This document shows, piece after piece, positions 1,544 to 14,269 of a DNA stretch of 43,498 nucleotides. The position numbers were made by a program, and so were the translations under genes. This stretch comes from an uncultured Coriobacteriaceae bacterium (GTDB lineage Bacteria > Actinomycetota > Coriobacteriia > Coriobacteriales > Atopobiaceae): assembly GCA_902795065.1 (NCBI GenBank), contig CADBJR010000024.1, positions 1-43,498 of the forward strand, read 5' to 3'. Position 1 is the first letter of the stretch, and the number at the start of each line of letters is the position of its first letter. The notes below the pieces were generated by a model. It was given only the letters and a program-made list of their open reading frames with translations, did no database searches and was not told the DNA's origin.

Positions 1544-3127
1544 TCACCTTCCGCTGTCGCCGTAGTTCGCGAGCACGCGCGCGGAGGGATCGTCCACATC
1601 GCAACCCTCCCACGAGCGGTTGGGCATCCAGAAGCCCGACACCATGCGCGCCTGTCCCGGATAGTGCTTCTCGAAGATATCGCGGTAGAGCAGCGATTCC
1701 TTGGTGAAGGGCTGCGCGAACCCGTAGCGCGCGCTTCGCCTCTCGAACTCCTCGTCGGTATAGGCCTTCTCGGCAAACGCCTTGAGATGGTCCACCATGG
1801 AGTGGCCCACGGCATCCGAGAAGGCCGCCTTCTCGCGCCAGAGGATGTCGCCGGGCAGCAGTTCCTGCCCTTCGAAAGCGTGTCTCAGCAGGTATTTGCC
1901 CTTGCCATAGGTGTTGAGCTTCATGTGCGGGTCGAGGCTCATCACATAGCGCACGAAATCGAGGTCGCCGAAGGGCACGCGCGCCTCGAGCGAGTTGACC
2001 GAGATGCAGCGGTCGGCGCGGAGCACGTCATACATATGGAGCTCGCGCAGACGCTTCTGCGCCTCCTCCTGAAACGCCTGGGCCGACGGCGCGAAGTCCG
2101 TGTATTTGTAGCCGAAGAGCTCGTCGGAGATCTCGCCGGTCAGGATGACCCTGATGTCGGTGCGCTCGTGGATGGCCTTGCACACGAGGTACATGCCGAT
2201 GCTTGCGCGGATGGTGGTGATGTCGTAGGTGCCGAGCAGCTCGATCACATCTTCGAGCGCGGAGACGACCTCCTCGGGCGTCATGGTGATCTCGGTGTGG
2301 TTGCTACCGATGAACTCCGCGGCCTCGCGCGCGTACTTGAGGTCGATGGGGTCCTCCTCCATGCCGATGGCAAAGGTGTTGATGGGGACTTCGCTGCCTC
2401 GCGCCGCGATTGCGCAGACGAGCGAGGAGTCGAGGCCGCCCGAGAGGAGGAATCCCACCTTGGAATCGGAGACGAGCCGCTTCTGCACGCCCGCCGTGAG
2501 CTTCTCGCGAATCCTGGCGCAGGCGGTCTCGAGGTCGTCGGTGCTGATGCGGTCGACCTTGGCGATGTCGCAGTAGCTGGTGAAGCAGCCGTCCTGGTAG
2601 TAGTAGCCGGGCGGGAAGGGCTCTATCGTCTCGACGAGCCCCACGAGGTTCTTGGGCTCGCTTGCGAAGACGATGGCTCCGCGCGCGTCATAGCCGTAGT
2701 AGAGCGGCCGGATGCCTATGGGGTCGCGTGCGGCGACGAAGCTCTTGGTCTGGGCGTCGTAGATGATGCACGCGAACTCGGCGTCGAGCATCGAGAAGAT
2801 CCCGACGCCGAACTCGCGGTACAGGGGAAGCAGGATCTCGCAGTCGCTCTCGCTCTTGAAGCGGTAGCCCTTGCGGACGAGCATGCTGCGCATCCAGGAG
2901 AACCCGTAGAGCTCGCCGTTGCAGACGGCATAGCTTCCGCCCAGCTCGAAGGGCTGCATGCCCTCGGGCGTGAGGCCCATGATGGAGAGTCGGTGGAACC
3001 CAAGGAGGCCGCGGCCCGTGTCGACGATGCGTGTGGAGTCGGGACCACGCGAGATCGTGCGGTTGAAGCCCTCCATGAAGGCGTCGATATCTGCATCTGC
3101 GCTGCAATAGCCCATGATCGAGCACAT
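1544..3127 (-). CDS. asnB: Asparagine synthetase, glutamine-hydrolysing (AsnB-like)
   Basis: Makes asparagine from aspartate, ATP and glutamine. The 527-residue protein starts MCSIMGYC, with Cys2 as the class II amidotransferase nucleophile once Met is removed. The glutaminase domain covers roughly residues 1-190 and includes SRGPDST and the CNGELYG motif. The synthetase domain follows with the ATP-pyrophosphatase loop SGGLDSS near residue 228 and a later GEISDELFGYKY motif. Length is close to the 554 residues of E. coli AsnB. The start is supported by AGGAGG upstream (minus strand). It lies 25 bp after the amt-PII gene and 2 bp before purF, inside an operon of glutamine and ammonium enzymes. 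Confidence 0.93.
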   Translation of the reverse strand: MCSIMGYCSADADIDAFMEGFNRTISRGPDSTRIVDTGRGLLGFHRLSIMGLTPEGMQPFELGGSYAVCNGELYGFSWMRSMLVRKGYRFKSESDCEILLPLYREFGVGIFSMLDAEFACIIYDAQTKSFVAARDPIGIRPLYYGYDARGAIVFASEPKNLVGLVETIEPFPPGYYYQDGCFTSYCDIAKVDRISTDDLETACARIREKLTAGVQKRLVSDSKVGFLLSGGLDSSLVCAIAARGSEVPINTFAIGMEEDPIDLKYAREAAEFIGSNHTEITMTPEEVVSALEDVIELLGTYDITTIRASIGMYLVCKAIHERTDIRVILTGEISDELFGYKYTDFAPSAQAFQEEAQKRLRELHMYDVLRADRCISVNSLEARVPFGDLDFVRYVMSLDPHMKLNTYGKGKYLLRHAFEGQELLPGDILWREKAAFSDAVGHSMVDHLKAFAEKAYTDEEFERRSARYGFAQPFTKESLLYRDIFEKHYPGQARMVSGFWMPNRSWEGCDVDDPSARVLANYGDSGR

Positions 3128-3152: not shown

Positions 3153-4907
3153 CTACTCTACGTCCTGGAGGGCGTCGTAGCCCTCCTCGCCCGTGCGGAC
3201 CTTGACCACGTTCTCCACGTCGTAGACGAAGATCTTGCCGTCGCCGATATGGCCGGTGTAGAGGACCTTCTTCGCAGCCTCGATGACGCTTCGGACCGGA
3301 ACCTTGCTGACGACGATATCGACCTGGACTTTCGGGAGCAGGGCCGCTTCGACTTGGACGCCGCGATAGTACTCGGGCTTTCCCTTCTGGGCTCCGCAGC
3401 CCAGCACGTGGGAGACCGTCATACCCGTGATGCCGATGGCCATCATGGCGTTCTTGAGCTGCTCGAGCCTGGATTCCTTGCAGACGATCTCGACCTTCGT
3501 CATCTTGAGCATGCCGTCGTCGAAAGATGGCACGCGTTTGACGGGAATCGCCTCCGCGACGGGCATATCGCCGGCAACGGCAAGCGCTTCGCCGTACCCG
3601 TAATCGATGCTCTCGACCGCCGCCATGAAGTCGGCGTAGGCGCTCGGCAGGCCATGCTCGGTGCTGTCAAGCCCCCGGATCTCCTCCTCTTCCGAGACGC
3701 GCAGGCCGATGCTGCCCTTGATGATGCTGAACGCGGCATACATCAGCACCGCCGTCCAGACGAGGATCGCCACGATGCCGAGCAGCTGCACGCCGAACAG
3801 GCGCGGGTTGCCGGTGTAGAGAAGCCCCTCGAGACCAGCGGGCGCTGCGGGGTTGGCGAGGAGCCCGACCGCGAGGGTGCCCCAGACGCCGTTCGCAAGA
3901 TGGACGCCGACCGCTCCGACAGGATCGTCCACATGGAAGCGCAGGTCGAGCGCCTCTACCACCACGACCACGAGAAGACCCGAGACGGCACCGATGACCG
4001 CCGCACCCAGCGCATCGACGGCATCGCAGCCCGCCGTGACGCCGACCAGGCCCGCAAGGGAGCCGTTCAGGCACATGGAGACGTCGGGCTTTCCGGTTCT
4101 GGCCCACGTGAAAGCCATGGTCGTGCACGTCGCAACCGCGGGGGCGATGGTCGTGGTCACGAATATCGAGGCAAGCGAGGTACCATCCCATGCGGCGGCG
4201 CCGTTGAATCCATACCAGCCGAACCACAGGACAAAGCATCCGAGCGCGCCGAGCGTGATGGCATGGCCCGGGATCGCGTTCACCTTGGTCACGTCACCAT
4301 TGACGTCGCGCACGTACTTCCCCAGACGAGGTCCGACCATGATTGCGCCGATGAGGGCCGTGATGCCTCCGACCGAATGGATTGCGGCCGAGCCGGCGAA
4401 GTCATGGAAGCCCATCTGGACGAGCCAGCCCTGCGGGTTCCACACCCAACCTGCCTCGACGGGATACACGAGGAGGGAGATGACGGCTGAGTAGATGCAG
4501 TATGAGGAGAACTTGGTGCGTTCCGCCATGGCGCCGGAAACGATCGTCGCCGCAGTTGCACAGAACACCAGGTTGAAGACGAATGACGGGGCGCTGCCTC
4601 CCTGCAGGAAAGCTCCGAAGTCGCTCAGGATCGCGAGATTCGGGATCCCGATGAAGCCCATCACATAGTCTTCGGCCATCATCAGGCTGAAGCCCAGCAG
4701 GACGAAGGCCACCGTCCCGATGCAGAAGTCCATCAGGTTCTTCATGATGATGTTCCCTGCATTCTTCGCACGGGTGAATCCCGTCTCCACCATCGCGAAG
4801 CCTGCCTGCATGAAGAAGACCAGCGCAGCGCCTATCAGGAACCAGACACCGAATACCTCGCCTGTCGCGGCTCCGACTACCAGGGTTTCAATCTCCTCAA
4901 CCGTCAT
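3153..4907 (-). CDS. amt: Ammonium transporter fused to a PII (GlnK-type) domain
   Basis: Probable membrane ammonium channel with its own PII regulator covalently attached. Residues about 10-410 are an Amt domain with about 11 membrane segments: AGFAMVETGF-RAKNAGNI near the N-terminus, GAMAERTKF, the first twin His in AAIHSVGG, the second in GVHLANGVWG, and the conserved cytoplasmic tail ending EHGLPSAYADF. After a linker of about 50 residues comes a complete PII domain (about the last 117 residues) with T-loop PEYYRG, including the Tyr at the usual uridylylation position, B-loop TGHIGDGKIF and C-loop VRTGEE. The usual arrangement is separate amt and glnK genes. The start at 4907 is chosen over 4925 because both follow AGGAG in an 18-bp tandem duplication and 4907 gives the normal Amt N-terminus. 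Second gene of the glnN operon. Confidence 0.9.
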   Translation of the reverse strand: MTVEEIETLVVGAATGEVFGVWFLIGAALVFFMQAGFAMVETGFTRAKNAGNIIMKNLMDFCIGTVAFVLLGFSLMMAEDYVMGFIGIPNLAILSDFGAFLQGGSAPSFVFNLVFCATAATIVSGAMAERTKFSSYCIYSAVISLLVYPVEAGWVWNPQGWLVQMGFHDFAGSAAIHSVGGITALIGAIMVGPRLGKYVRDVNGDVTKVNAIPGHAITLGALGCFVLWFGWYGFNGAAAWDGTSLASIFVTTTIAPAVATCTTMAFTWARTGKPDVSMCLNGSLAGLVGVTAGCDAVDALGAAVIGAVSGLLVVVVVEALDLRFHVDDPVGAVGVHLANGVWGTLAVGLLANPAAPAGLEGLLYTGNPRLFGVQLLGIVAILVWTAVLMYAAFSIIKGSIGLRVSEEEEIRGLDSTEHGLPSAYADFMAAVESIDYGYGEALAVAGDMPVAEAIPVKRVPSFDDGMLKMTKVEIVCKESRLEQLKNAMMAIGITGMTVSHVLGCGAQKGKPEYYRGVQVEAALLPKVQVDIVVSKVPVRSVIEAAKKVLYTGHIGDGKIFVYDVENVVKVRTGEEGYDALQDVE

Positions 4908-4939
4908 CAGACCATCTCCTATCATCAGACCATCTCCTA
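4904..4939 (-). repeat. 18-bp tandem duplication carrying ribosome binding site and start codon
   Basis: Minus-strand sequence TAGGAGATGGTCTGATGA occurs twice in perfect tandem between the glnN stop and the Amt-PII coding sequence. The first copy includes the TAG stop of glnN. Each copy supplies AGGAG eight bases before an ATG, so two alternative starts 18 bp apart (4925 and 4907) are created in the same frame. Confidence 0.9.
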
Positions 4940-7033
4940 CTTCACACTGAACAGCAGGTCGCCGTAGGACGGGAACGGCCAGAAGCCCTTCTCGACCTTG
5001 ACCTCCGCCTCGTCGACCGGCGCGCGGAGCGCGTCCATCCTCGGAAGCACCTCGTCACGGATCACCTCGGCCTCGGCGACGATGCCGTCGACATCCGCCA
5101 GACCTGCCACTGCAGCCTCGAGCTCGTCGGCTTTGGCGTTGATCTCGTCGAGGAGCTGGGAGAGCTTCACGATGAGGCTGCTCTCGTATCCGCAGGGGAG
5201 GTCGGGAACGACGCTCTTCTTGGCCGAGGCAGCTGCCGCGAGCGAGCCCGTGTAGGACTCGATGGCGGGCATGATGTGCTTGCGCGCCATCCTGACCATG
5301 GTGTTCGCCTCGATCGTCACGCTCTTGCAGTAGTTCTCGAGCATGATGTCGCAGCGCGATGCGATCTCATCCTTCGACATGACCTTATGACGGGTGAGCA
5401 TGCGCACGTTCTTCTCGTCCAGCAGCTTGGGCATGGCATCGGCCGTGGTGCGCAGGTTGAGCAGGCCGCGCTGCTGCGTTGCCTCCTCGATCCAGGCGTC
5501 GTCGTAGCCGTTGCCGTTGAAGATGATGCGACGATGGTCGGCGATCGTCTTCCTGATCATGGCGTGCAGCGTCTCCTCGAAATCGTGCGCGAGCTCGAGA
5601 CGGTCGGCATAGGTGCGCAGGCTCTCGGCGACTGCGGTGTTCAGCATGATGTTCGCGCAGGCGATGCTGTTGGAGGATCCGAGCATCCTGAACTCGAACT
5701 TGTTGCCCGTGAAGGCGAAGGGGCTCGTGCGGTTTCTGTCCGTCGTGTCGCGGTTGAACTTGGGAAGCACGTCCACACCGAGCTTCATCTGCTTCTTCTC
5801 GGTGCCCTTGTAGGGCTTGCCGGTCTCGATGGCCTCGAGCACCGCATCGAGCTCCTCGCCGAGGAACATCGAGACGACTGCCGGAGGAGCCTCGTTCGCA
5901 CCGAGGCGATGGTCGTTGCCCGCCGTGGCGACGGAGAGCCTCAGCAGATCCTGGTAATCGTCGACTGCCTTGATGACCGCGCAGAGGAAGAGCAGGAACT
6001 GGGCGTTCTCATAGGGCGTCTCGCCCGGAGAGAGCAGGTTCTGGCCGGAATCGGTGGAGATGGACCAGTTGTTGTGCTTGCCGCTGCCGTTCACACCGTC
6101 GAACGGCTTCTCGTGGAGCAGGCACACGAAGCCGTGGCGTGCGGCCACCTTCTGCATGATCTCCATGGTGAGCTGGTTCTGGTCGCAGGCCACGTTGACC
6201 GTGGAGTAGATCGGGGCGAGCTCGTGCTGGGCGGGGGCGACCTCGTTATGCTCGGTCTTGGCGAGGATGCCGAGCTCCCAAAGCTCCTCGTTGAGGTCTT
6301 CCATGAACGCCTCGACACCGGGCTTGATGACGCCGAAGTAGTGGTCATCGAGCTCCTGGCCCTTGGGCGGCTTGGCGCCGAAGAGCGTGCGACCGCAGAA
6401 GCGCAGGTCGGGACGCTGCTCGTACATCTCCTTGGTGACGAGGAAGTACTCCTGCTCGGGGCCGACGGACGAGACGACGCGCTTGGCCTCGGTGTTGCCG
6501 AAGAGGCGCAGGATGCGGAGCGCCTGCTTGTTCAGCGCTTCCATGGAACGCAAAAGAGGCGTCTTCTTGTCGAGTGCCTGCCCGCCGTAGGAGCAGAACG
6601 CCGTGGGGATGCAGAGGGTGTGGCCCTTGATGAAGGCATAGGACGTGGGATCCCAGGCGGTGTAGCCGCGCGCCTCGAAGGTTGCGCGCAGGCCGCCGCT
6701 GGGGAACGACGAGGCGTCGGGCTCGCCCTTGATGAGCTCCTTGCCCGAGAACTCCATGATCACGCCGCCGTCGGGAGAGGGCGAGATGAAGCTGTCGTGC
6801 TTCTCGGCCGTGATGCCCGTGAGCGGCTGGAACCAGTGCGTGAAGTGCGTGGCCCCGCGCTCGACGGCCCATTCCTTCATCGCCTCGGCAACGGCGTTTG
6901 CCACGCTGATATCGAGCTCCTTGCCCTCGTCGATCGTCTGCCGCAGCGACTGGTAGACCTCCCTCGAGAGCATCGCCCGCATATCCCTGTCATCGAAGAC
7001 CTTGCTTCCGAAACACTCAGGAACGGTACCCAT
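4937..7033 (-). CDS. glnN: Glutamine synthetase type III (GSIII / GlnN)
   Basis: ATP-dependent synthesis of glutamine from glutamate and ammonia, the entry point of ammonium assimilation. The 698-residue length is that of the large type III family rather than type I (about 450). Diagnostic features are the N-terminal [21 protein letters not shown], the GSIII substrate region [10 protein letters not shown], the catalytic-region segments [14 protein letters not shown] and the later [12 protein letters not shown]. The start follows GAGAGGAGAAGGAG. First gene of a leftward operon with amt-PII, asnB and purF, preceded by two ANTAR-type hairpin/terminator units (7064-7102 and 7135-7183) and two candidate promoters, so control by transcription antitermination is inferred. 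No adenylylation control is expected for this family. Confidence 0.95.
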
Positions 7034-7063
7034 CTTCTTCTCCTTCTCCTCTCATAAGGAAGC

Positions 7064-7102
7064 GGCGCCTTCCGGGACATGCCGGGAAGACGCCGTTGCC
7101 TT
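7064..7102 (-). promoter_or_regulatory. Attenuator unit 2 of the glnN leader: ANTAR-type hairpin overlapping a terminator
   Basis: Minus-strand RNA can form AAGGC-[AACGGC]-GUCUU (7087-7102), a hairpin with a six-base loop having A at position 1 and G at position 4, the signature reported for ANTAR protein targets. Its 3' arm is also the 5' arm of a longer stem at 7064-7094 (12 of 13 pairs, loop CAUGU), so the two folds exclude each other. The stem is followed by GCTTCCTTA, a poor U-run, so termination here may be weak or may act together with unit 1. It ends 30 bases before the glnN start. Confidence 0.7.
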
Positions 7103-7108
7103 GATTGC

Positions 7109-7137
7109 CCTATATGATCCCGCCTATGCGGGGTAAA
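7109..7137 (-). promoter_or_regulatory. Candidate second promoter for glnN
   Basis: Minus strand TTTACC (7137-7132), 17-bp spacer, TATAGG (7114-7109). Each hexamer matches the sigma-70 consensus at four of six positions. The expected start near 7102 is the first base of the unit 2 hairpin. The -35 overlaps the U-run of the unit 1 terminator. Confidence 0.35.
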
Positions 7138-7183
7138 GAGAAAGGCGCCTCGAACCACATGGTCCGAAGACGCCCTTGCCTTC
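7135..7183 (-). promoter_or_regulatory. Attenuator unit 1 of the glnN leader: ANTAR-type hairpin overlapping a terminator
   Basis: Minus-strand RNA forms GAAGGC-[AAGGGC]-GUCUUC (7166-7183), six pairs with a hexaloop A1/G4. The 3' arm is shared with a long terminator stem at 7144-7174 (GGCGUCU through CGGACC, loop AUGU, then GGUUCG and AGGCGCC) followed by TTTCTCTTT (7143-7135). Anti-terminator and terminator cannot coexist. Unit 1 and unit 2 share AAGGCAA-S-GGCGTCTTC and AGGCGCC, showing one design used twice in series. Confidence 0.75.
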
Positions 7184-7193
7184 ATGCTTTGCG

Positions 7194-7222
7194 ATTCTCA
7201 ACCTCCGCACGGCGGGCGTCAA
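7194..7222 (-). promoter_or_regulatory. Promoter for the glnN operon
   Basis: Minus strand TTGACG (7222-7217), 17-bp spacer, GAGAAT (7199-7194). The predicted start near 7188 lies about five bases before the unit 1 hairpin, so the leader begins essentially at the regulatory structure. Confidence 0.6.
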
Positions 7223-7335
7223 CCTCTGACTTCTCTCGTTAACAAATCGGTTTCCACCGTGTCATACACGTTAACAATCTGTCTCAAACCCGCTGCTTCA
7301 GCGCCTGCGAGCATGCACCTTCCCCCGCGCGGGCG

Positions 7336-7341
7336 TAAAAT
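7336..7341 (+). promoter_or_regulatory. Candidate -10 element of the glutamate synthase operon
   Basis: TAAAAT placed so that transcription would begin near 7348, at the first base of the + strand hairpin. No good -35 is seen 16-18 bp upstream, so an activator or a different start is possible. Confidence 0.4.
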
Positions 7342-7348
7342 CCCCTCA

Positions 7349-7409
7349 GATGAGCAAAGGCGTTCATCGTCCGCATGGGGTTTCCCGTGCGGCGATGGGC
7401 GCCTTTTTT
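7349..7409 (+). promoter_or_regulatory. Attenuator of the glutamate synthase operon: ANTAR-type hairpin overlapping a strong terminator
   Basis: GATGAGC-[AAAGGC]-GTTCATC at 7349-7368 is a seven-pair hairpin with a hexaloop having A1 and G4. From inside its loop onward the RNA can instead form a long terminator: AAAGGCG, CATCG, CCGCATGGG, loop GTTT (7380-7383), CCCGTGCGG, CGATG, CGCCTTT, ending in six T (7404-7409). The two structures share 7359-7368 and exclude each other. The structure stands 19 bases before the ATG of the first gene, with no gene upstream on this strand, so it is an attenuator rather than an end-of-gene terminator. Confidence 0.8.
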
Positions 7410-7427: not shown

Positions 7428-8522
7428 ATGGAACGAGAAGGACAGATCCGCATCCCGTCGGGCTGCGCCATCGCCGCGGTCATCTCCCGCGAGGGGAGGC
7501 GCATGTCGGGCGAGAAGATCGTGCGGGCCATGAAGCCCATGCACGAGCGCTCGAACGGTCTGGGCGGAGGCTTTGCCGCCTATGGCATCTACCCGGAGTA
7601 CAAGGAGCTCTATGCCCTGCACCTCTTCTTCGACTCGCGCGCCACGCGCAAGGAGTGCGAGGCGTTCCTCAAGGAGTACTTCGAGGTCGCCAAGTCGGAG
7701 AACATCCCCACGCGCAAGATCCCCACCATCACCGACGAGCCCATCATATGGCGCTATTTCGTGGCGCCGCTGCCGTCGGTGCTCGCGAACCTGCAGCTCG
7801 ACGAGCGCGAGCTCGTGGCGCGCATCGTCATGCGGATCAACGCGCAGATGAAGGGTGCCTACGTCTTCTCGAGCGGCAAGAACATGGGAACCTTCAAGGC
7901 CGTGGGATACCCCGAGGACGTGGGCGTGTTCTATCGCCTGGAGGAATACCGCGGCTATTGCTGGACGGCGCATGGGCGCTACCCCACCAACACGCCCGGC
8001 TGGTGGGGCGGCGCGCATCCCTTCACCCTGCTCGACTACTCGGTGGTGCACAACGGCGAGATCTCGTCCTACGATGCCAACCGCCGCTTCATCGAGATGT
8101 TCGGCTACAAGTGCACGCTTCAGACCGACACCGAGGTCATCACCTACATCATGGACTACCTGCTGCGCGTGCAGGGGCTCACGCTCGAGGAGGCCGCCCA
8201 TGTGGTGGCGGCGCCGTTCTGGAGCACCATCGCGGCCGAGCCCGACCCCGCGCGCAAAGAGGAGCTGACATATCTGCGCACCGTCTTCCCGAGCCTGCTC
8301 GTCACGGGGCCCTTCTCCATCGTGCTGGGCTTCGACGGCGGGCTCATGGCGCTGAACGACCGCTTGAAGCTGCGCTCGATGGTCGTGGCGGAGAAGGAGG
8401 ACCGCGTGTACGTGGCAAGCGAGGAGGCCGCCATCAGGACCATGGAGCCCGAGGTCGAGCATGTCTGGGCACCTGCTGGCGGCGAGCCGGTCATCGTGCA
8501 GGTGAAAGGGGGCGAGCGCTGA
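7428..8522 (+). CDS. Glutamate synthase amidotransferase domain protein (GltB1-like)
   Basis: Glutaminase subunit of a split, archaeal-type glutamate synthase; releases ammonia from glutamine for the synthase core encoded next. The 364-residue protein contains the class II amidotransferase elements HGRYPTNTPGWWGGAHPF and VVHNGEISSY, and LQTDTEVITY. The likely nucleophile is the Cys in PSGCAIAAV, residue 13 from the chosen start, so 12 residues would need removal. The start at 7428 follows GAAAGGA; an earlier in-frame ATG at 7350 falls inside the terminator hairpin and lacks a ribosome site. The stop overlaps the next start as TGATG. Confidence 0.88.
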   Translation: MEREGQIRIPSGCAIAAVISREGRRMSGEKIVRAMKPMHERSNGLGGGFAAYGIYPEYKELYALHLFFDSRATRKECEAFLKEYFEVAKSENIPTRKIPTITDEPIIWRYFVAPLPSVLANLQLDERELVARIVMRINAQMKGAYVFSSGKNMGTFKAVGYPEDVGVFYRLEEYRGYCWTAHGRYPTNTPGWWGGAHPFTLLDYSVVHNGEISSYDANRRFIEMFGYKCTLQTDTEVITYIMDYLLRVQGLTLEEAAHVVAAPFWSTIAAEPDPARKEELTYLRTVFPSLLVTGPFSIVLGFDGGLMALNDRLKLRSMVVAEKEDRVYVASEEAAIRTMEPEVEHVWAPAGGEPVIVQVKGGER

Positions 8523-10027
8523 TGGCCATCGATTTCGTCTATCCCGAGTACGAGGTCGTGCGCAACGAGGCGCGCTGCATCGCATGCCGCGTGTGCGAGC
8601 GGCAGTGCTCCAACGAGGTGCACGTCTACAGCGAGGCGCGCGGCGCGATGATGAGCGACGAACGCAAGTGCGTCAACTGCCAGCGTTGCGTCACGCTCTG
8701 CCCCACGCGGGCGCTCAAGATCGTCAAGAGCGACTGCAGGCTGCGCGAGAACGCCAACTGGAGCAACGACACCATCAAAGAGGTCTACAAGCAGGCGGCG
8801 ACCGGCGGCGTGCTGCTCTCGTCCATGGGCAATCCCCGGCCGCTTCCGGTGTATTGGGACCGTCTGCTCATCAACGCATCGCAGGTCACGAACCCGCCTA
8901 TCGACCCGCTGCGCGAGCCCATGGAGACGCGCGTCTCGTTGGGGAAGAAGCCCGCGCACATAGAGCGCGGCGCGGACGGCAGGATCTCGTGCGAGCTGCC
9001 GCCGCAGGTGGAGCTCTCGATGCCTGTGATGTTCTCGGCCATGAGCTACGGCTCAATCAGCTACAACGCGCACGCCTCGCTCGCGCGCGCCGCCACCGAG
9101 CTCGGCATCCTCTACAACACGGGCGAGGGCGGCCTGCACGAGGACTTCTACAAGTACGGGCCCAACACCATCGTGCAGGTGGCGAGCGGGCGCTTCGGCG
9201 TCCACGAAGACTATCTCGAGGCGGGCGCCGCCATCGAGATCAAGATGGGCCAGGGGGCCAAGCCGGGCATCGGCGGGCACCTTCCCGGGACCAAGATCGT
9301 GGGCGACGTATCGCGCACAAGGATGATTCCCGAGGGCACCGACGCCATCTCGCCGGCCCCGCATCACGACATCTACTCCATCGAGGACCTCAGGCAGCTG
9401 GTCCTCTCGCTCAAGGAGGCCACCGGATACGAGAAGCCCGTCATCGTGAAGGTCGCGGCGGTCCACAACATCGCGGCCATCGCGAGCGGCATCGCCCGCA
9501 GCGGCGCCGATATCATCGCCATCGACGGCTTCCGCGGCGGTACCGGCGCGGCGCCCACGCGCATCCGTGACAACGTGGGCATCCCCATCGAGCTGGCGCT
9601 CGCCGCGGTTGACCAGCGCCTGCGTGACGAGGGTATCCGCAACAACGTCTCGCTGGTGGTGGGCGGCTCGATCCGCAGCGCGGCCGATGTGGTGAAGGCG
9701 GTCGCCCTGGGCGCCGATGCCTGTTACGTGGCCACGGCGGCGCTGCTCGCGCTGGGGTGCCATCTCTGCCGCACGTGCCAGACGGGAAAGTGCAACTGGG
9801 GCATCGCGACGCAGCGGCCCGACCTGGTGAAGCGCCTCAATCCCGAGATGGGCAGCGAGCGCCTCGTCAACCTCATGACCGCATGGCGCCACGAGATCAA
9901 GGAGCTCATGGGCGGCATGGGCATCAACTCGATTGAGGCGCTGCGCGGCAACCGCCTCATGCTGCGCGGCGTGGGCCTCACGAACAAGGAACTCGAGATC
10001 CTCGGGGTCTCGCATGCAGGGGTGTGA
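8522..10027 (+). CDS. Glutamate synthase core, FMN and Fe-S (GltB2-like), with N-terminal ferredoxin domain
   Basis: Combines 2-oxoglutarate with ammonia and reducing power to give glutamate. The 501-residue protein opens with two 4Fe-4S clusters (CIACRVCERQC and CVNCQRCVTLCPT, residues about 20-65), then the FMN-binding (beta/alpha)8 synthase domain: GEGGLHEDFYKYG, IEIKMGQGAKPGIGGHLPG, IDGFRGGTGAAPT and the 3Fe-4S site CHLCRTCQTGKC near the C-terminus. It lacks the amidotransferase and GXGXG domains, which are separate genes on either side, as in archaeal GOGAT. Starts on the TGATG overlap with the upstream gene. Confidence 0.92.
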   Translation: MAIDFVYPEYEVVRNEARCIACRVCERQCSNEVHVYSEARGAMMSDERKCVNCQRCVTLCPTRALKIVKSDCRLRENANWSNDTIKEVYKQAATGGVLLSSMGNPRPLPVYWDRLLINASQVTNPPIDPLREPMETRVSLGKKPAHIERGADGRISCELPPQVELSMPVMFSAMSYGSISYNAHASLARAATELGILYNTGEGGLHEDFYKYGPNTIVQVASGRFGVHEDYLEAGAAIEIKMGQGAKPGIGGHLPGTKIVGDVSRTRMIPEGTDAISPAPHHDIYSIEDLRQLVLSLKEATGYEKPVIVKVAAVHNIAAIASGIARSGADIIAIDGFRGGTGAAPTRIRDNVGIPIELALAAVDQRLRDEGIRNNVSLVVGGSIRSAADVVKAVALGADACYVATAALLALGCHLCRTCQTGKCNWGIATQRPDLVKRLNPEMGSERLVNLMTAWRHEIKELMGGMGINSIEALRGNRLMLRGVGLTNKELEILGVSHAGV

Positions 10028-10031
10028 GCGC

Positions 10032-10472
10032 ATGAAACGTGTCTATGTGAACGAGCAATGGTGCCTCGCGTGCCATCTCTGCGAATACAACTGCGCGTTC
10101 GCCAACTCCGGATTGGACGATATGGTGCTCGCGCTCAAGGGCAAGCCCATCTTCCCGCGCATCCACGTGGAGGGCGATGAGCGCATCTCGTATGCCGTCT
10201 CGTGTCGGCATTGCGACGACCCCCTCTGCGTCAAGAGCTGCATTGCGGGGGCGCTCTCCAAGGTGGACGGCATCATCCGCGTGGACAGGGAGCGCTGCGT
10301 GGGATGCCTCACCTGCGTGCTGGTGTGCCCCTATGGCGCGCTTGCGCCGGCAGGCGACGGCATCATGCAGAAATGCGAGCTCTGCCTTGAGAACGCATGC
10401 GACGAGCCCGCCTGCGTGGCGGGATGCCCCAACAGGGCGATCGTCTATGAGGAGCGGGGTGAGCGCGCATGA
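10032..10472 (+). CDS. 4Fe-4S ferredoxin-type electron transfer subunit
   Basis: A 146-residue iron-sulfur protein of the HycB/DmsB type. Cys clusters seen: CLACHLCEYNC, CRHCDDPLCVKSC, CVGCLTCVLVC and CELCLENACDEPACVAGC, enough for up to four 4Fe-4S centres. It probably carries electrons between the FAD oxidoreductase encoded next and the synthase core. Starts 4 bp after the synthase stop and overlaps the next start by ATGA. Which external donor it accepts electrons from cannot be told from sequence. Confidence 0.85.
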   Translation: MKRVYVNEQWCLACHLCEYNCAFANSGLDDMVLALKGKPIFPRIHVEGDERISYAVSCRHCDDPLCVKSCIAGALSKVDGIIRVDRERCVGCLTCVLVCPYGALAPAGDGIMQKCELCLENACDEPACVAGCPNRAIVYEERGERA

Positions 10473-11701
10473 AGCGATATACCATCATCGGCAACGGCGT
10501 GGCTGCCATCGGGTGCATCGAGGGCATCAGGGGCGTCGATGCGCAGGGCCCCATCACGGTGGTCTCGCACGAGCGGCATCCGGCGTACTGCCGGCCGCTC
10601 ATCTCGTACCTTCTCGAGGGCAGGGCCGATCTCGGGCACATGCCCTACCGCGACGGCGCGTTCTACGAGCGCATGGGCTGCGAGGTGCTTTCGGGTAGGG
10701 ACGCCGTGGGCATCGACCCCGCCGCACGTGAGGTAGAGCTCGACGATGGGTCGCGGGTATCCTTTGACGCCCTCTGCGTCGCCACGGGGTCGTCTCCTTT
10801 CGTGCCGCCGTTCGCGGGCCTTGCCACCGTGGCCTCGCAGCACGCCTTCATGACGCTCGACGATGCGTTGGGACTCGATGCGGCCATCGATGCGACGTCG
10901 CGCGTCCTCATCGTGGGCGCAGGGCTCATCGGCCTCAAATGCGCGGAGGGCATCTGCGGGCGCGTAGCCTCCATCACCGTCTGCGACCTTGCCGACCGCG
11001 TGCTCTCGAGCATCCTCGACGCGGAGTGCGCCGCCCTCATGCAGGCGCGTCTCGAGGAGCAGGGCATCCGCCTCATGCTCGGCGACAGCGTCGATCGCTT
11101 CGAGGGCGGCCTCGCGCACATGAAGGGCGGCGAGGACGTGGCCTTCGACGTGCTCGTGCTCGCCGTGGGCGTGCGCGCCAACACCGCGCTCGTCTCGCAG
11201 GCAGGCGGCGAGGTCGACCGCGGCATCATTGTCGACAACCATATGCGCACCTCGATCCCCGGCGTCTTCGCGGCGGGCGATTGCGCGCAGGGCTACGACG
11301 TCTCGCTCGGCGCCAAGCGCGTGCTGGCGATCATGCCCAACGCCTACATGCAGGGCCATGCGGCCGGCGTGTGCATGGCGGGCGGAGACGAGGTGTTCGA
11401 TACGGGCATCCCCATGAACTCGATCGGGTTCTTCGGGCTGCATGCCATGACCGCGGGAACGTATGAGGGTGCGTGCTACGAGGAGCGCGGCGAGGGCTCG
11501 ATCAAGCGGCTCTTCACCGAAGACGGCCTGCTCAAAGGCTTCATCCTTATCGGTTGCGACGAGCGCGCGGGCATCTACACGTCGCTTATCCGCGAGCGGA
11601 CGCCGCTCGATTCGATCGATTTCGAGGCGCTCAAGAAGGCCGCCACCACGACGGCCTTCTCCGCCGAGCGCCGTGCCCAGATGTTCGGGGAGGCGGTCTA
11701 G
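10469..11701 (+). CDS. FAD/NAD(P)-dependent oxidoreductase of the glutamate synthase complex
   Basis: A 410-residue flavoprotein with two Rossmann folds: FAD site YTIIGNGVAAIG at the N-terminus and NAD(P) site VLIVGAGLIGLK near residue 150, followed by the second FAD contact GVFAAGDCAQG. The family is that of NADH-dependent nitrite/rubredoxin-type reductases; it is not the GltD beta subunit of bacterial GOGAT, which has its own N-terminal Fe-S domain. Its position between the ferredoxin and the GXGXG protein points to feeding electrons to the split synthase. Overlaps the ferredoxin gene (ATGA). Confidence 0.87.
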   Translation: MKRYTIIGNGVAAIGCIEGIRGVDAQGPITVVSHERHPAYCRPLISYLLEGRADLGHMPYRDGAFYERMGCEVLSGRDAVGIDPAAREVELDDGSRVSFDALCVATGSSPFVPPFAGLATVASQHAFMTLDDALGLDAAIDATSRVLIVGAGLIGLKCAEGICGRVASITVCDLADRVLSSILDAECAALMQARLEEQGIRLMLGDSVDRFEGGLAHMKGGEDVAFDVLVLAVGVRANTALVSQAGGEVDRGIIVDNHMRTSIPGVFAAGDCAQGYDVSLGAKRVLAIMPNAYMQGHAAGVCMAGGDEVFDTGIPMNSIGFFGLHAMTAGTYEGACYEERGEGSIKRLFTEDGLLKGFILIGCDERAGIYTSLIRERTPLDSIDFEALKKAATTTAFSAERRAQMFGEAV

Positions 11702-11702
11702 C

Positions 11703-12434
11703 ATGCAGATCATCGCAGAAGGGCTCGAGCATCGCGCCATCAACGAGATCATCCGCTCGGGCGAGGGCCCCTTCACCATCGAGGGGTGCCTCGGCCAGCG
11801 CTTCATCGCGGCGGGCATGTCCGATTGCGACATCACAATCAACGGGGTCTCGGGCAACGCGCTCGGCGCCTACCTCAACGGCGCGACGATCACCGTGAGG
11901 GGAAACGCGCAGGATGCCGTGGGAGACACGATGAACGAGGGCAGGATCATCGTGCATGGAAGCATCGGCGACGCGGCGGGCTACGCCATGCGCGGCGGCA
12001 GCATCCTCGTCGAAGGCGATGCGGGCTACCGCGCGGGCATCCACATGAAGGCCTACGAGGACAAAGCTCCCCTGCTCGTCATCGGCGGCTGCGCGGGGAG
12101 CTTTCTCGGCGAATACCAGGCGGGCGGCACGATCATCGTGCTCGACCTCGCGGAGCGTGCCTCGGACAGGCCCCGCAGGATCGTGGGCAACTTCCCCTGC
12201 ACGGGCATGCACGGCGGCAGGATGTTCCTGCGCGCGGACTGCCGCGGCATCGTGTTCCCCGATCAGGTTACAGCTCGGGTTATAGATGATTTCGAACGTG
12301 AGGAACTTCGCGTGCTCTTGGCGGAGTTCTGCGAGGTGTTCGCATACGATGTCGACGAGGTGCTGTCGGTGCCGTTCACCGTGGTGGCCCCCGACAGCGC
12401 CAACCTGTATAGGCAGATGTACGTCACGAACTGA
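11703..12434 (+). CDS. Glutamate synthase GXGXG domain protein (GltB3-like)
   Basis: Stand-alone version of the C-terminal right-handed beta-helix domain of the glutamate synthase large subunit; structural, and thought to hold the amidotransferase and synthase domains together. The 243 residues contain the typical repeats GNALGAYLNGATITVRGNAQD, GSIGDAAGYAMRGGSILV and GNFPCTGMHGG. The ATG at 11703 lies one base after the oxidoreductase stop. A longer reading upstream is only the shadow frame of the oxidoreductase. Confidence 0.9.
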   Translation: MQIIAEGLEHRAINEIIRSGEGPFTIEGCLGQRFIAAGMSDCDITINGVSGNALGAYLNGATITVRGNAQDAVGDTMNEGRIIVHGSIGDAAGYAMRGGSILVEGDAGYRAGIHMKAYEDKAPLLVIGGCAGSFLGEYQAGGTIIVLDLAERASDRPRRIVGNFPCTGMHGGRMFLRADCRGIVFPDQVTARVIDDFEREELRVLLAEFCEVFAYDVDEVLSVPFTVVAPDSANLYRQMYVTN

Positions 12435-12445
12435 CGGGGTGGGCC

Positions 12446-13654
12446 ATGGGCTATACGCAAGACGAGGTCCTGCAATACGTGCGCGAGGATGACGTGAAGT
12501 TCGTCCGCCTCGCCTTCTGCGATGTGTTCGGCACGCAGAAGAACATCTCCATCATGGCAGACGAGCTGCCGCGCGCCTTCGAGCAGGGCATCGCGATCGA
12601 CGGCTCGGCCATCGCGGGGTTCTCGGGCGTCGAGAGAAGCGATCTTATCCTGCATCCCGATGCGGCAACGCTGGTGCCGCTTCCCTGGCGCCCCGAGCAC
12701 GGGCGGGTCGTGCAGCTGTTCTCGTCGATCGTCCGTCCCGACGGCTCGGCGTTTCCCTGCGACACGCGCGCCCTCCTCGCACGGGCGGTCGAACGTGCCG
12801 CGCAGGCAGGCATCGTGTTATCTTTCGGTGCCGAGCAGGAATTCTATCTCTTCGAGCTCGACGAGCAGGGAAGGCCCACGCAGCGCCCCTGCGATTCCGC
12901 GGGCTACATGGATATCGCGCCCGAGGACCGAGGGGAGAACGTTCGCCGCGAGGTGTGCCTCACCCTCGAGCGGATGGGCGTCCATCCCGAGAGCTCGCAT
13001 CATGAGGAGGGGCCGGGGCAGAACGAGATCGATTTCCGCTACGCCGATGCGATCACGGCTGCCGACAACACGATGATGTTCCAGCGCGTGGTACGCACGA
13101 TCGCGCATCGCAACGGCCTCTGTGCGGACTTTTCCGCCAAGCCGCTCGAGCATGCGCCCGGCAACGGCTTCCACATCAATATGGCGCCGCATCCGTTCAG
13201 CGAGGCCGCGCTCGGGTCCATGGTCGCGGGCATTCTCAGCCAGACAAGCGCCATGACGCTCTTCCTCAATCCCACCGAGGGCTCGTATCGGCGCTTGGGC
13301 GGCGATAAGGCTCCCGCGTACGTGTCCTGGTCGGCCGAGAACCGCTCGCAGCTGGTGAGGATCCCGGCGGCGATGGGGGAGTATCGCCGCGCCGAGCTGC
13401 GCTCGCCCGATCCGAGTGCGAATCCCTATATTGCCTTCGCGCTGCTCATCCACGCAGCGCTGGACGGCATGAAGGGCGGCCTTGCGCTTCCCGAGCCCTG
13501 CGATATCGATTTGTTCTCGGCATCTGCCGAGATGCTCGAAGGGCTCGAACGGCTCCCCACGAGCCTTGCCGAGGCGCGTGCGGCCGCTTCGGCGAGCGCC
13601 TTTGTCGCAGCGCATGTTCCCGCCGAGGTCCTTACCGCATATCTTAGGGCATAG
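12446..13654 (+). CDS. Short, divergent glutamine synthetase family protein (type I fold)
   Basis: Homologous to type I glutamine synthetase but only 402 residues, against about 440-470. Retained: DGSAIAGF, the metal Glu pair GAEQEF, HHEEGPGQNEI, metal His in GNGFHINM, NRSQLVRIP and ELRSPDPSANPY. Odd: where classical enzymes have the ammonium-site flap Glu (GYEAP, Glu327 in Salmonella numbering) this protein reads GDKAP, so Lys288 replaces it, and the adenylylation region is absent. It may have low or no biosynthetic activity; the operon partner across the divergent region already encodes GSIII. It sits directly before the ANTAR regulator gene (9-bp gap), suggesting a sensing role. Enzyme or sensor cannot be settled from sequence. 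Confidence 0.8.
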   Translation: MGYTQDEVLQYVREDDVKFVRLAFCDVFGTQKNISIMADELPRAFEQGIAIDGSAIAGFSGVERSDLILHPDAATLVPLPWRPEHGRVVQLFSSIVRPDGSAFPCDTRALLARAVERAAQAGIVLSFGAEQEFYLFELDEQGRPTQRPCDSAGYMDIAPEDRGENVRREVCLTLERMGVHPESSHHEEGPGQNEIDFRYADAITAADNTMMFQRVVRTIAHRNGLCADFSAKPLEHAPGNGFHINMAPHPFSEAALGSMVAGILSQTSAMTLFLNPTEGSYRRLGGDKAPAYVSWSAENRSQLVRIPAAMGEYRRAELRSPDPSANPYIAFALLIHAALDGMKGGLALPEPCDIDLFSASAEMLEGLERLPTSLAEARAAASASAFVAAHVPAEVLTAYLRA

Positions 13655-13663
13655 GTCAGCGAG

Positions 13664-14269
13664 ATGGAGCAGGGCGGAGCTCACAGGCCGGATGGCATGG
13701 AGCGCGTGTGCAGCGTGCTCGTGGTATCTGCTGCCGAGAAGTTCGAGGAGGTGCTCTCGACGCTGCTTCCTGCTTCGCGCTACAGCCCCGTCAAGCATGT
13801 CTCGAGCGTGAGCGCCGCAAAGCGCGCGTGGGGCGTGCGCGAATACGATTTCGTGATCGTGAACTCGCCGCTTCCCGACGATCCGGGCGTGCGGTTCTCC
13901 ATCGACGTATGCGCTGCGCGCCGCACGGTCGCCCTGCTGCTGGTTGCGCATGACATCCACCCCGAGGTGCAGGCGAAGGTATCGCCGTTCGGCGTGTTCA
14001 CGCTGCCCAAGCCCACATCCCGCCCGCTGCTCGCCCTCGCGCTCTCCTGGATGGCGAGCGCGAGCAGCAGATTGGGCAAACTCGAGGAGCATGCGCTTTC
14101 CATCGAGGAGAAGATGGCCGAGATTCGCCTGGTCAACAAGGCCAAGTGGGTGCTCATCTCCACGATCGGGATGGATGAGCCCGCAGCGCATCGCTTTATC
14201 GAGAAGCAGGCTATGAACCGCTGCATCACCCGTCGCGAGGTCGCCGAGGAGATCATCGCGGGCACCTAG
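13664..14269 (+). CDS. ANTAR-domain RNA-binding antiterminator with a degenerate receiver domain
   Basis: A 201-residue two-domain regulator. The C-terminal about 60 residues match ANTAR: a coiled helix, then IRLVNKAKWVLIS, EPAAHRFIEKQAM and REVAEEII. ANTAR proteins bind pairs of RNA hairpins with hexaloops (A1, G4) and block terminators. The N-terminal about 125 residues look like a CheY-type receiver fold (VLVVSAAEKF, DFVIVNSPLPDD, VALLLVAH, LPKP), but the acidic pair is SAA and the phospho-acceptor Asp position reads Asn67, so phosphorylation is unlikely, as in AmiR or NasR-like proteins controlled by ligands or partners. Last gene of the glutamate synthase operon, whose own leader and that of the divergent glnN operon carry matching hairpins. 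An alternative start at 13697 would remove 11 residues. Confidence 0.85.
   Translation: MEQGGAHRPDGMERVCSVLVVSAAEKFEEVLSTLLPASRYSPVKHVSSVSAAKRAWGVREYDFVIVNSPLPDDPGVRFSIDVCAARRTVALLLVAHDIHPEVQAKVSPFGVFTLPKPTSRPLLALALSWMASASSRLGKLEEHALSIEEKMAEIRLVNKAKWVLISTIGMDEPAAHRFIEKQAMNRCITRREVAEEIIAGT

Follow-up and report, generated by a model that had tools for sequence, protein, structure and literature searches.

Two divergent operons of nitrogen genes in an uncultured Coriobacteriaceae bacterium (Atopobiaceae) raise the question of whether a single ANTAR protein can control both of them, its own gene included, through leaders that carry one hexaloop per terminator. The window, that is, the whole stretch of DNA analysed here, comprises 43,498 nt (GenBank assembly GCA_902795065.1, contig CADBJR010000024.1, positions 1-43,498 of the forward strand). 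Dual-hexaloop ANTAR antitermination has been established for EutV, NasR and AmiR (PMC3369931), and we used the dual-hexaloop ANTAR-target RNA (Ramesh 2012) as the standard of comparison. For EutV, deletion of P1 abolished induction in vivo, both hexaloops being needed (PMC3369931). In vitro, antitermination by EutV was lost when the linker was lengthened by 20 nt, and EutV binds to a single hexaloop (PMC8934654).

Organization of the locus

The cassette has the divergent order purF/asnB-amt-PII-GSIII (leftward) and split glutamate synthase-GS-like protein-ANTAR (rightward). Pfam and TIGR domain matches confirmed the nitrogen genes predicted for both operons as well as the ANTAR gene (13664) as the last gene of the rightward one; to this gene list we add a degenerate glutamine synthetase-like (GS-like) gene, which immediately precedes that for the ANTAR protein. 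The genes are as follows:

129-1613 (ORF as listed), reverse strand: PurF amidophosphoribosyltransferase (TIGR01134, 483 bits)
1544-3127, reverse strand: asparagine synthase AsnB
3153-4925, reverse strand: ammonium transporter fused to PII
4937-7033, reverse strand: glnN, type III glutamine synthetase (GSIII), 698 aa, first gene of the leftward operon
7428-8522, forward strand: glutamate synthase amidotransferase subunit (PF00310), first gene of the rightward operon
8573-10027 (start provisional), forward strand: glutamate synthase FMN/Fe-S subunit (Fer4 + Glu_synthase; PF01645, E = 2.4e-138)
9933-10472 (start provisional), forward strand: 4Fe-4S ferredoxin-type subunit
10469-11701, forward strand: pyridine nucleotide-disulphide oxidoreductase
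11463-12434 (listed ORF, start provisional), forward strand: glutamate synthase GXGXG subunit (PF01493)
12446-13654, forward strand: GS-like protein, 402 aa, candidate sensor partner (E-flap GYEAP changed to DKAP, C-terminal thong missing)
13664-14269, forward strand: ANTAR protein, 201 aa, proposed trans-acting regulator (Pfam PF03861, E = 4.7e-15)

The ammonium transporter and PII form one 590-aa ORF in the window; in a related cluster, L036, they correspond to separate matching stretches. The ANTAR protein consists of a degenerate receiver, with N at the phospho-Asp position, and a C-terminal ANTAR domain. A genome-wide Pfam search returned one PF03861 match, the gene at 13664.

Between glnN (7033) and the amidotransferase gene of glutamate synthase (7428) lies an intergenic region of 395 bp that contains three hexaloop hairpins. 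When the entire window was scanned for hairpins with an A1/G4 hexaloop and a stem of at least 5 bp, 36 were found; a clear overlapping terminator was seen in these three:

7349-7368, forward strand: glt hexaloop hairpin GATGAGC-AAAGGC-GTTCATC, putative antiterminator (scan; fold -8.6 kcal/mol)
7356-7409, forward strand: glt intrinsic terminator (about -41 kcal/mol; U-tract 7404-7409)
7165-7184, reverse strand: glnN unit 1 hexaloop hairpin TGAAGGC-AAGGGC-GTCTTCG (scan; fold -7.0 kcal/mol)
7136-7177, reverse strand: glnN unit 1 terminator, stem about 7177-7141 (about -23.5 kcal/mol; U-tract TTTCTCTT at 7143-7136)
7087-7102, reverse strand: glnN unit 2 hexaloop hairpin AAGGC-AACGGC-GTCTT (scan; fold -3.2 kcal/mol)
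7055-7095, reverse strand: glnN unit 2 overlapping hairpin 7095-7063 (-22.9 kcal/mol; weak U-tract)

Scan and folding bore out the predicted structures: all three hexaloops (AAGGGC, AACGGC, AAAGGC) are closed by GC...GU, and in every unit the hexaloop and the 3' arm double as the 5' arm of a far stronger long hairpin. Overlap of an antiterminator hairpin with an intrinsic terminator, a feature of the comparison standard, was found in the folds, in the scan and in the covariation of the terminator (see below). The further claim that each unit has its own terminator held for glt and glnN unit 1, which have clear U-tracts, and was not confirmed for glnN unit 2, in which the U-tract (CUUCCUUA) is weak. 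Applied to 1,500 dinucleotide shuffles, a detector requiring an A1/G4 hexaloop and an overlapping terminator returned no unit in 1,485, one in 15 and never two; it returned three in the real 395-bp region. The three hairpin-terminator units are real and beyond chance. No Rfam riboswitch or leader matched the region above the gathering score, and permissive thresholds yielded nothing sensible. An inverted repeat, GTTAAC...GTTAAC, lies at 7239-7280 between the divergent promoters and is a possible site for a DNA-binding regulator.

Distribution of the cassette and properties of the ANTAR and GS-like proteins

Relatives were gathered by Pfam and alignment searches, a single-sequence search with the ANTAR protein having missed most of them within the family. 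Searching named genomes with the ANTAR alignment yielded at least 453 relatives, and the best 80 of these at least 453 (the best 80 hereafter) belong to Clostridia or other Bacillota (among them Lachnospiraceae and Oscillospiraceae), with animal-gut samples as the source of many. Where their contigs are long enough, the best 80 carry this cassette as well, for the most part with the genes arranged as in the window. Within Coriobacteriales, one further genome of the genus has an orthologous cluster (L035), and three more such clusters come from different families (L036, L042 and L048). A GS-like protein of at least 60% identity is encoded in 5 of 249 order genomes (G000, G177, G325, G399 and G408), and G061, from outside this sample, has a more divergent copy; the ANTAR gene adjoins the GS-like gene in all these carriers, and occurrence of the GS-like gene follows that of the ANTAR gene across the 249 genomes. 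The ANTAR gene is linked to GS/GOGAT genes in the window and in relatives, as in the NitR regulon. As judged by these searches, the cassette belongs mainly to Clostridia and has a scattered occurrence in Coriobacteriales. The expectation that the units recur before GSIII and glt in relatives was borne out, with the scope corrected from Coriobacteriia to this wider and patchier range.

The window GSIII shares 76-82% identity with almost every full-length clostridial GSIII among the best 80, and a quick tree of the GS-like proteins placed the window and G061 among clostridial sequences with moderate support and three other Coriobacteriales near the base. From this identity and this tree, the window cassette appears to have entered the genus from Clostridia; for the order as a whole, the same reading is tentative. 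Vertical inheritance within the genus was rejected, as the identity to the GSIII of two genus mates is 53-54%, against 76-82% to the clostridial proteins. Relatives without the ANTAR gene have a GSIII of their own, 53-55% identical to that of the window; their GSIII leaders contained no unit, and a search for the window-type glutamate synthase gave no match in them.

In the receiver, N occupies the phospho-Asp position in 49 of 49 clostridial proteins among the best 80, with Ser/Ala at the acidic pair; in Coriobacteriales relatives, that position is D in L042 and V in L048. The window-type ANTAR protein does not have the acidic pair plus phospho-Asp of a phosphorylated response regulator. To compare the ANTAR domain with EutV, we mapped the contact residues listed in PMC8934654 by alignment. 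Lys149, Glu160 and Met172 of EutV have conserved counterparts, as has Lys147 (in the form of Lys/Arg), a constancy that is partly due to selection since the search motifs include some of these residues. Several residues that contact RNA in EutV are altered (Arg142 to Ile, Arg168 to Glu, Arg175 to Cys and Arg177 to Thr), and Tyr164 is His, as seen in the AmiR alignment.

In glutamine synthetase, the E-flap supplies a catalytic Glu, and the two rings are connected through the thong helices (PMC9249791). The GS-like protein, which is 401-405 aa long in 68 of 72 cases among the best 80, keeps the metal- and nucleotide-site motifs GAEQEF, SHHEEGPGQNEID, PGNGFH, NRSQLVRIP and ELRSPD. This retention, and the PII domain encoded in the same cluster, would suit an active ligase that acts on another amine, with the ANTAR protein controlled otherwise (by PII-Amt, a kinase or a small molecule). 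We regard this as a distinct possibility that falls short of an even chance: GYEAP of the E-flap reads xxKAP in every sequence in which this motif could be parsed, and the thong helix at the C-terminus is absent, so that the 402-aa protein is without both the E-flap Glu and the thong of an active type I GS; its gene directly precedes the ANTAR gene wherever a clostridial contig among the best 80 reaches far enough, in addition to the co-occurrence across the order; and the receiver has no phosphoacceptor. The GS-like protein is instead probably the sensor partner of the ANTAR protein and a candidate pseudoenzyme. With a receiver of this kind, it is probably the GS-like protein that determines how active the ANTAR protein is, and the analogy to AmiC-AmiR, NasS-NasT and GS-GlnR led us to propose the GS-like protein as the sensor.

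Promoters, number of hexaloops and conservation

The original prediction placed each hairpin at or a few bases after a transcription start. Plausible promoters were found for the first glnN unit and for glt:

7336-7341, forward strand: -10 TAAAAT of the glt promoter, 7 nt before the hairpin, with a weak -35 TGCACC at 7314-7319 (P = 0.002)
7194-7222, reverse strand: glnN unit 1 promoter, with -35 TTGACG (7217-7222), a 17-bp spacer and -10 GAGAAT (7194-7199) (P = 0.001)

The -10 of glnN unit 1 lies 9 nt from the hairpin. Among the best 80, clostridial glt units are preceded by a sigma-70 promoter with a mean of 11.4 of 12 consensus matches and a gap to the stem of 7 nt in 32 of 38 cases and 6-8 nt in all; the corresponding values for the first glnN unit are 11.3 of 12 and 8-10 nt. 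A promoter located 6-10 nt from the stem puts the hairpin at about +1 of the transcript, both in glt and in the first glnN unit, and the RNA cannot accommodate a P1 hairpin ahead of it. The second glnN unit departs from the prediction. Its candidate promoter in the window (TTTACC-17-TATAGG) is weak (P = 0.033), none was detected before the orthologous second units (P 0.37-0.90), and the 27 second glnN units among the best 80 clostridial loci scored 7.07 of 12, compared with 6.80 for shuffles. A separate promoter for all three units was rejected on these grounds; by the same comparison, glnN unit 2 lies in series on the unit 1 transcript and has no convincing promoter of its own.

The second unit could act on translation rather than termination. 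Its hairpin ends about 10-15 nt upstream of the Shine-Dalgarno sequence of GSIII, its U-tract is weak in the window and in L035, and translation-level ANTAR RNAs have been mentioned for actinobacteria (PMC8164766). We consider this unlikely, given that the second units of L036, L042 and many clostridial loci among the best 80 have good U-tracts and that the Shine-Dalgarno sequence itself is unpaired.

The number of hexaloops per terminator was examined in the same leaders. Among the best 80, glt leaders of Clostridia have exactly one unit in 38 of 42 cases, and clostridial GSIII leaders (n = 43) have two hexaloops in 27, one in 15 and none by motif in 1; the first and second glnN units are separated by 63-127 nt. 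L035, L036 and L042 likewise have two glnN units in series, so that the predicted serial arrangement recurs. One glt unit is present in each of L035, L042 and L048, and in L036 glt lies downstream in a single operon with GSIII. The glnN leader of L048 (8957-9352) is an exception among the Coriobacteriales clusters: it has a strong terminator and no clean hexaloop hairpin.

These counts bear on a classical dual hexaloop of which one hairpin was missed, or of which the two glnN hairpins form a widely spaced P1/P2 pair. EutV-type sites do require two hexaloops, and glnN usually bears two on one transcript. Nevertheless, we judge this explanation very unlikely. An adjacent A/G..G hexaloop hairpin within 30 nt was seen in 3 of 101 clostridial units among the best 80, which upholds the claim that a terminator has one hexaloop and not a P1/P2 pair joined by a short linker; the -10 leaves no space for P1; glt has one unit in nearly all loci; and the glnN loops, 63-127 nt apart, each come with their own terminator, compared with the 5-12 nt linkers of eut. 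An overlooked second loop was rejected for the same reason and because a like scan detected true duals in sister orders of Coriobacteriia and so is able to see them. The leaders found there near glt are classical, with a promoter, a P1 hexaloop, an 8-14 nt linker and a P2 that overlaps the terminator. In the sister orders, the receiver of the ANTAR protein is canonical, and so is GSI, which has its full length. By this contrast, the single-loop form occurs together with a degenerate receiver and a GS-like neighbour, and the single-hexaloop form most likely is a distinct variant that differs from the known examples needing two loops per switch. The sister-order dual hexaloops were observed in L051-L073, with P1 directly after the promoter and beside canonical REC-ANTAR genes; they lie near glt, and the gene downstream of them, which starts MKEFAVFWGCTIPARFP, looks HdrB-like by eye.

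To examine the loop independently of its pattern, we took the longest stem after the promoter with any loop of 4-9 nt. In this promoter-anchored test on the best 80, 54 of 54 hexaloops had A1, A2 and G4; the exceptions were a four-base loop in five glt leaders, and other lengths or no loop in a minority of GSIII leaders. The 107 clostridial units from the best 80 were counted by means of the loop pattern and are not independent support for A1 and G4. They comprise two stem types, GGC/GTC in glnN and RGC/GTTC in glt, the first five positions being 96-100% paired, and stem positions 3-5 switch between GC/AU, AU/GC and AU/UA from one type to the other.

In an alignment of 14 Coriobacteriales units, the hexaloop hairpin was 95.2% paired and four pairs showed double changes, a covariation score reached by none of 500 shuffles. 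The terminator stem of the Coriobacteriales units had double changes in 11 of 17 pairs. Loop position 3 covaries with its terminator partner, A2 and G4 are fixed, and A1 is present in 13 of 14; the rare change of A1 to G occurs in the second glnN unit of L035 and in L083 (loop GAAGGC). This is the pattern expected if a protein reads A1 and G4. A C-G pair closes the loop in all 14 Coriobacteriales units and in all 107 pattern-selected clostridial units, on stems of at least 3 bp. The hexaloops and their pairing are therefore conserved in relatives, with covarying stems.

A DNA pattern, GCAANGGYGTN{15,45}GCGYC, performed genome-wide no better than its reversed control, and a covariance model (R1) was used instead. 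In the window's own genome, R1 found three units, all in the window. Strong units were also found in G061, G177, G325 and G399; across 61 family genomes, strong matches were confined to the window's own genome. The ANTAR-less genus mates G031, G053 and G062 (one of which is only 68% complete) gave no R1 units. Strong R1 units are confined to genomes with the GS-like/ANTAR pair, in line with the prediction that they accompany this type of ANTAR gene. Weak matches (E above 1e-6) in ANTAR-less genomes were rejected as ordinary terminators or coding sequence. Plain attenuators or terminators with a by-product 5' hairpin, the loop being kept by terminator pairing and read-through being left to Rho, NusA or translation, would account for the sharing of conservation that follows from the loop and 3' arm belonging to a terminator arm, and for the weak R1 matches that ordinary AAAGGCGCC...GGCGCCTTT terminators yield in ANTAR-less genomes, but we give this explanation the least credence of all, because the 5' arm is dispensable for the core terminator and yet covaries with the 3' arm, A1, A2 and G4 stay constant while loop position 3 follows its terminator partner, and strong units track the ANTAR/GS-like pair.

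Predicted antitermination and comparison with known systems

By structure, loop, gene context and conservation, the units are ANTAR-type sites and most likely functional. Observed directly were the structures, which are mutually exclusive by their sequence, as well as their conservation and covariation, the position of the promoters, and the linkage and co-occurrence of the genes. We infer that the ANTAR protein binds the hairpins, prevents termination and regulates its own gene, and likewise what part the GS-like protein plays and in which direction the signal acts. With good though not full confidence, we explain the locus by single-hexaloop ANTAR antitermination at three sites, exerted by a NitR-type ANTAR regulator with a GS-like partner. 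The comparative tests and the single ANTAR gene of the genome support the original proposal of one regulator for both operons. By default, RNA polymerase starting at the hairpin would make the loop and 3' arm, which would enter the stronger terminator, and transcription would stop about 50-60 nt in. An active NitR-type ANTAR protein would grip the A1/G4 hexaloop as it emerges, stabilise the small hairpin and thereby block the terminator. Read-through would then extend on the rightward side into glt-...-GS-like-ANTAR, amounting to autoregulation, and on the leftward side into glnN-amt/PII-asnB-purF, the glnN transcript passing two checkpoints in series. The activity of the ANTAR protein would probably be governed by the degenerate GS-like protein encoded directly upstream, the likely signal being nitrogen or glutamine status. 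Counted against this explanation are the two-hexaloop requirement of EutV, by which a lone hexaloop should fail, the several altered RNA-contact residues and the poor U-tract of glnN unit 2 in the window.

The general idea is already known. NitR of Clostridium saccharobutylicum is reported to be an antiterminator that induces GS/GOGAT genes on nitrogen limitation (PMC6316151, citing Stutz et al. 2007), and an ANTAR gene has been noted in a GS-GOGAT cluster of C. thermocellum, the Clo1313_2030 cluster (PMC4676874). Both clusters resemble that of the window in having an ANTAR protein within a GS/GOGAT cluster, and NitR, likened here by its published description only, is the nearest precedent. 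The window leaders share with EutV/eut, NasR/nasF and AmiR/amiE the A1/G4 hexaloop, a conserved closing pair, the antiterminator-terminator overlap and an ANTAR protein, but have one hexaloop at about +1 rather than P1 plus P2. Unlike EutV, the window receiver lacks a phosphoacceptor and the RNA-contact residues differ. The proposed GS-like/ANTAR pair is similar to AmiC-AmiR (PMC8934654) and NasS-NasT (PMC3795266), in which a sensor encoded by an adjacent gene, and not phosphorylation, controls the ANTAR protein; the candidate partner in the window, unlike theirs, is a glutamine-synthetase homologue. A GS fold as nitrogen sensor, as proposed here, has a parallel in Bacillus GlnR/TnrA under feedback-inhibited GS (PMC9249791), whereas the window regulator is a predicted RNA-binding antiterminator and its GS-like neighbour lacks the E-flap Glu and the thong used in the GlnR system.

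In the searchable literature, outside which most subscription journals lie, neither single-hexaloop antitermination sites nor a degenerate GS partner were found to be described. That the locus represents a new ANTAR family, with a single hexaloop at the transcription start and no P1, a degenerate GS replacing the kinase and a nitrogen-reading glutamine regulon, is a tentative proposal that we hold at a little under even chances. The structural study of EutV left open why there are two hexaloops if the dimer binds one, and called for work on single hexaloops (PMC8934654). A natural, conserved single-hexaloop set with a dual-hexaloop sister group would offer a direct test bed for that question. 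If the explanation is correct, many gut Clostridia and a number of Coriobacteriales use a GS-like/ANTAR pair that reads nitrogen status and works on the nascent RNA at +1, and many cultured and uncultured gut Clostridia would have a testable nitrogen-sensing circuit with a degenerate glutamine synthetase as candidate sensor.

Further units, whose downstream genes were named by eye from the start of the translated sequence, were found in Coriobacteriales before guaA (L042:11979, L141:2561), pyrG (L036:19312) and amt (L083), and, among the best 80, in clostridial loci before gdhA (L184/L209/L218), pyrG, guaA and purC (L191:2451). They suggest a regulon of ammonia-assimilating, glutamine-producing or -dependent and purine genes, functions that would fit a nitrogen or glutamine signal.
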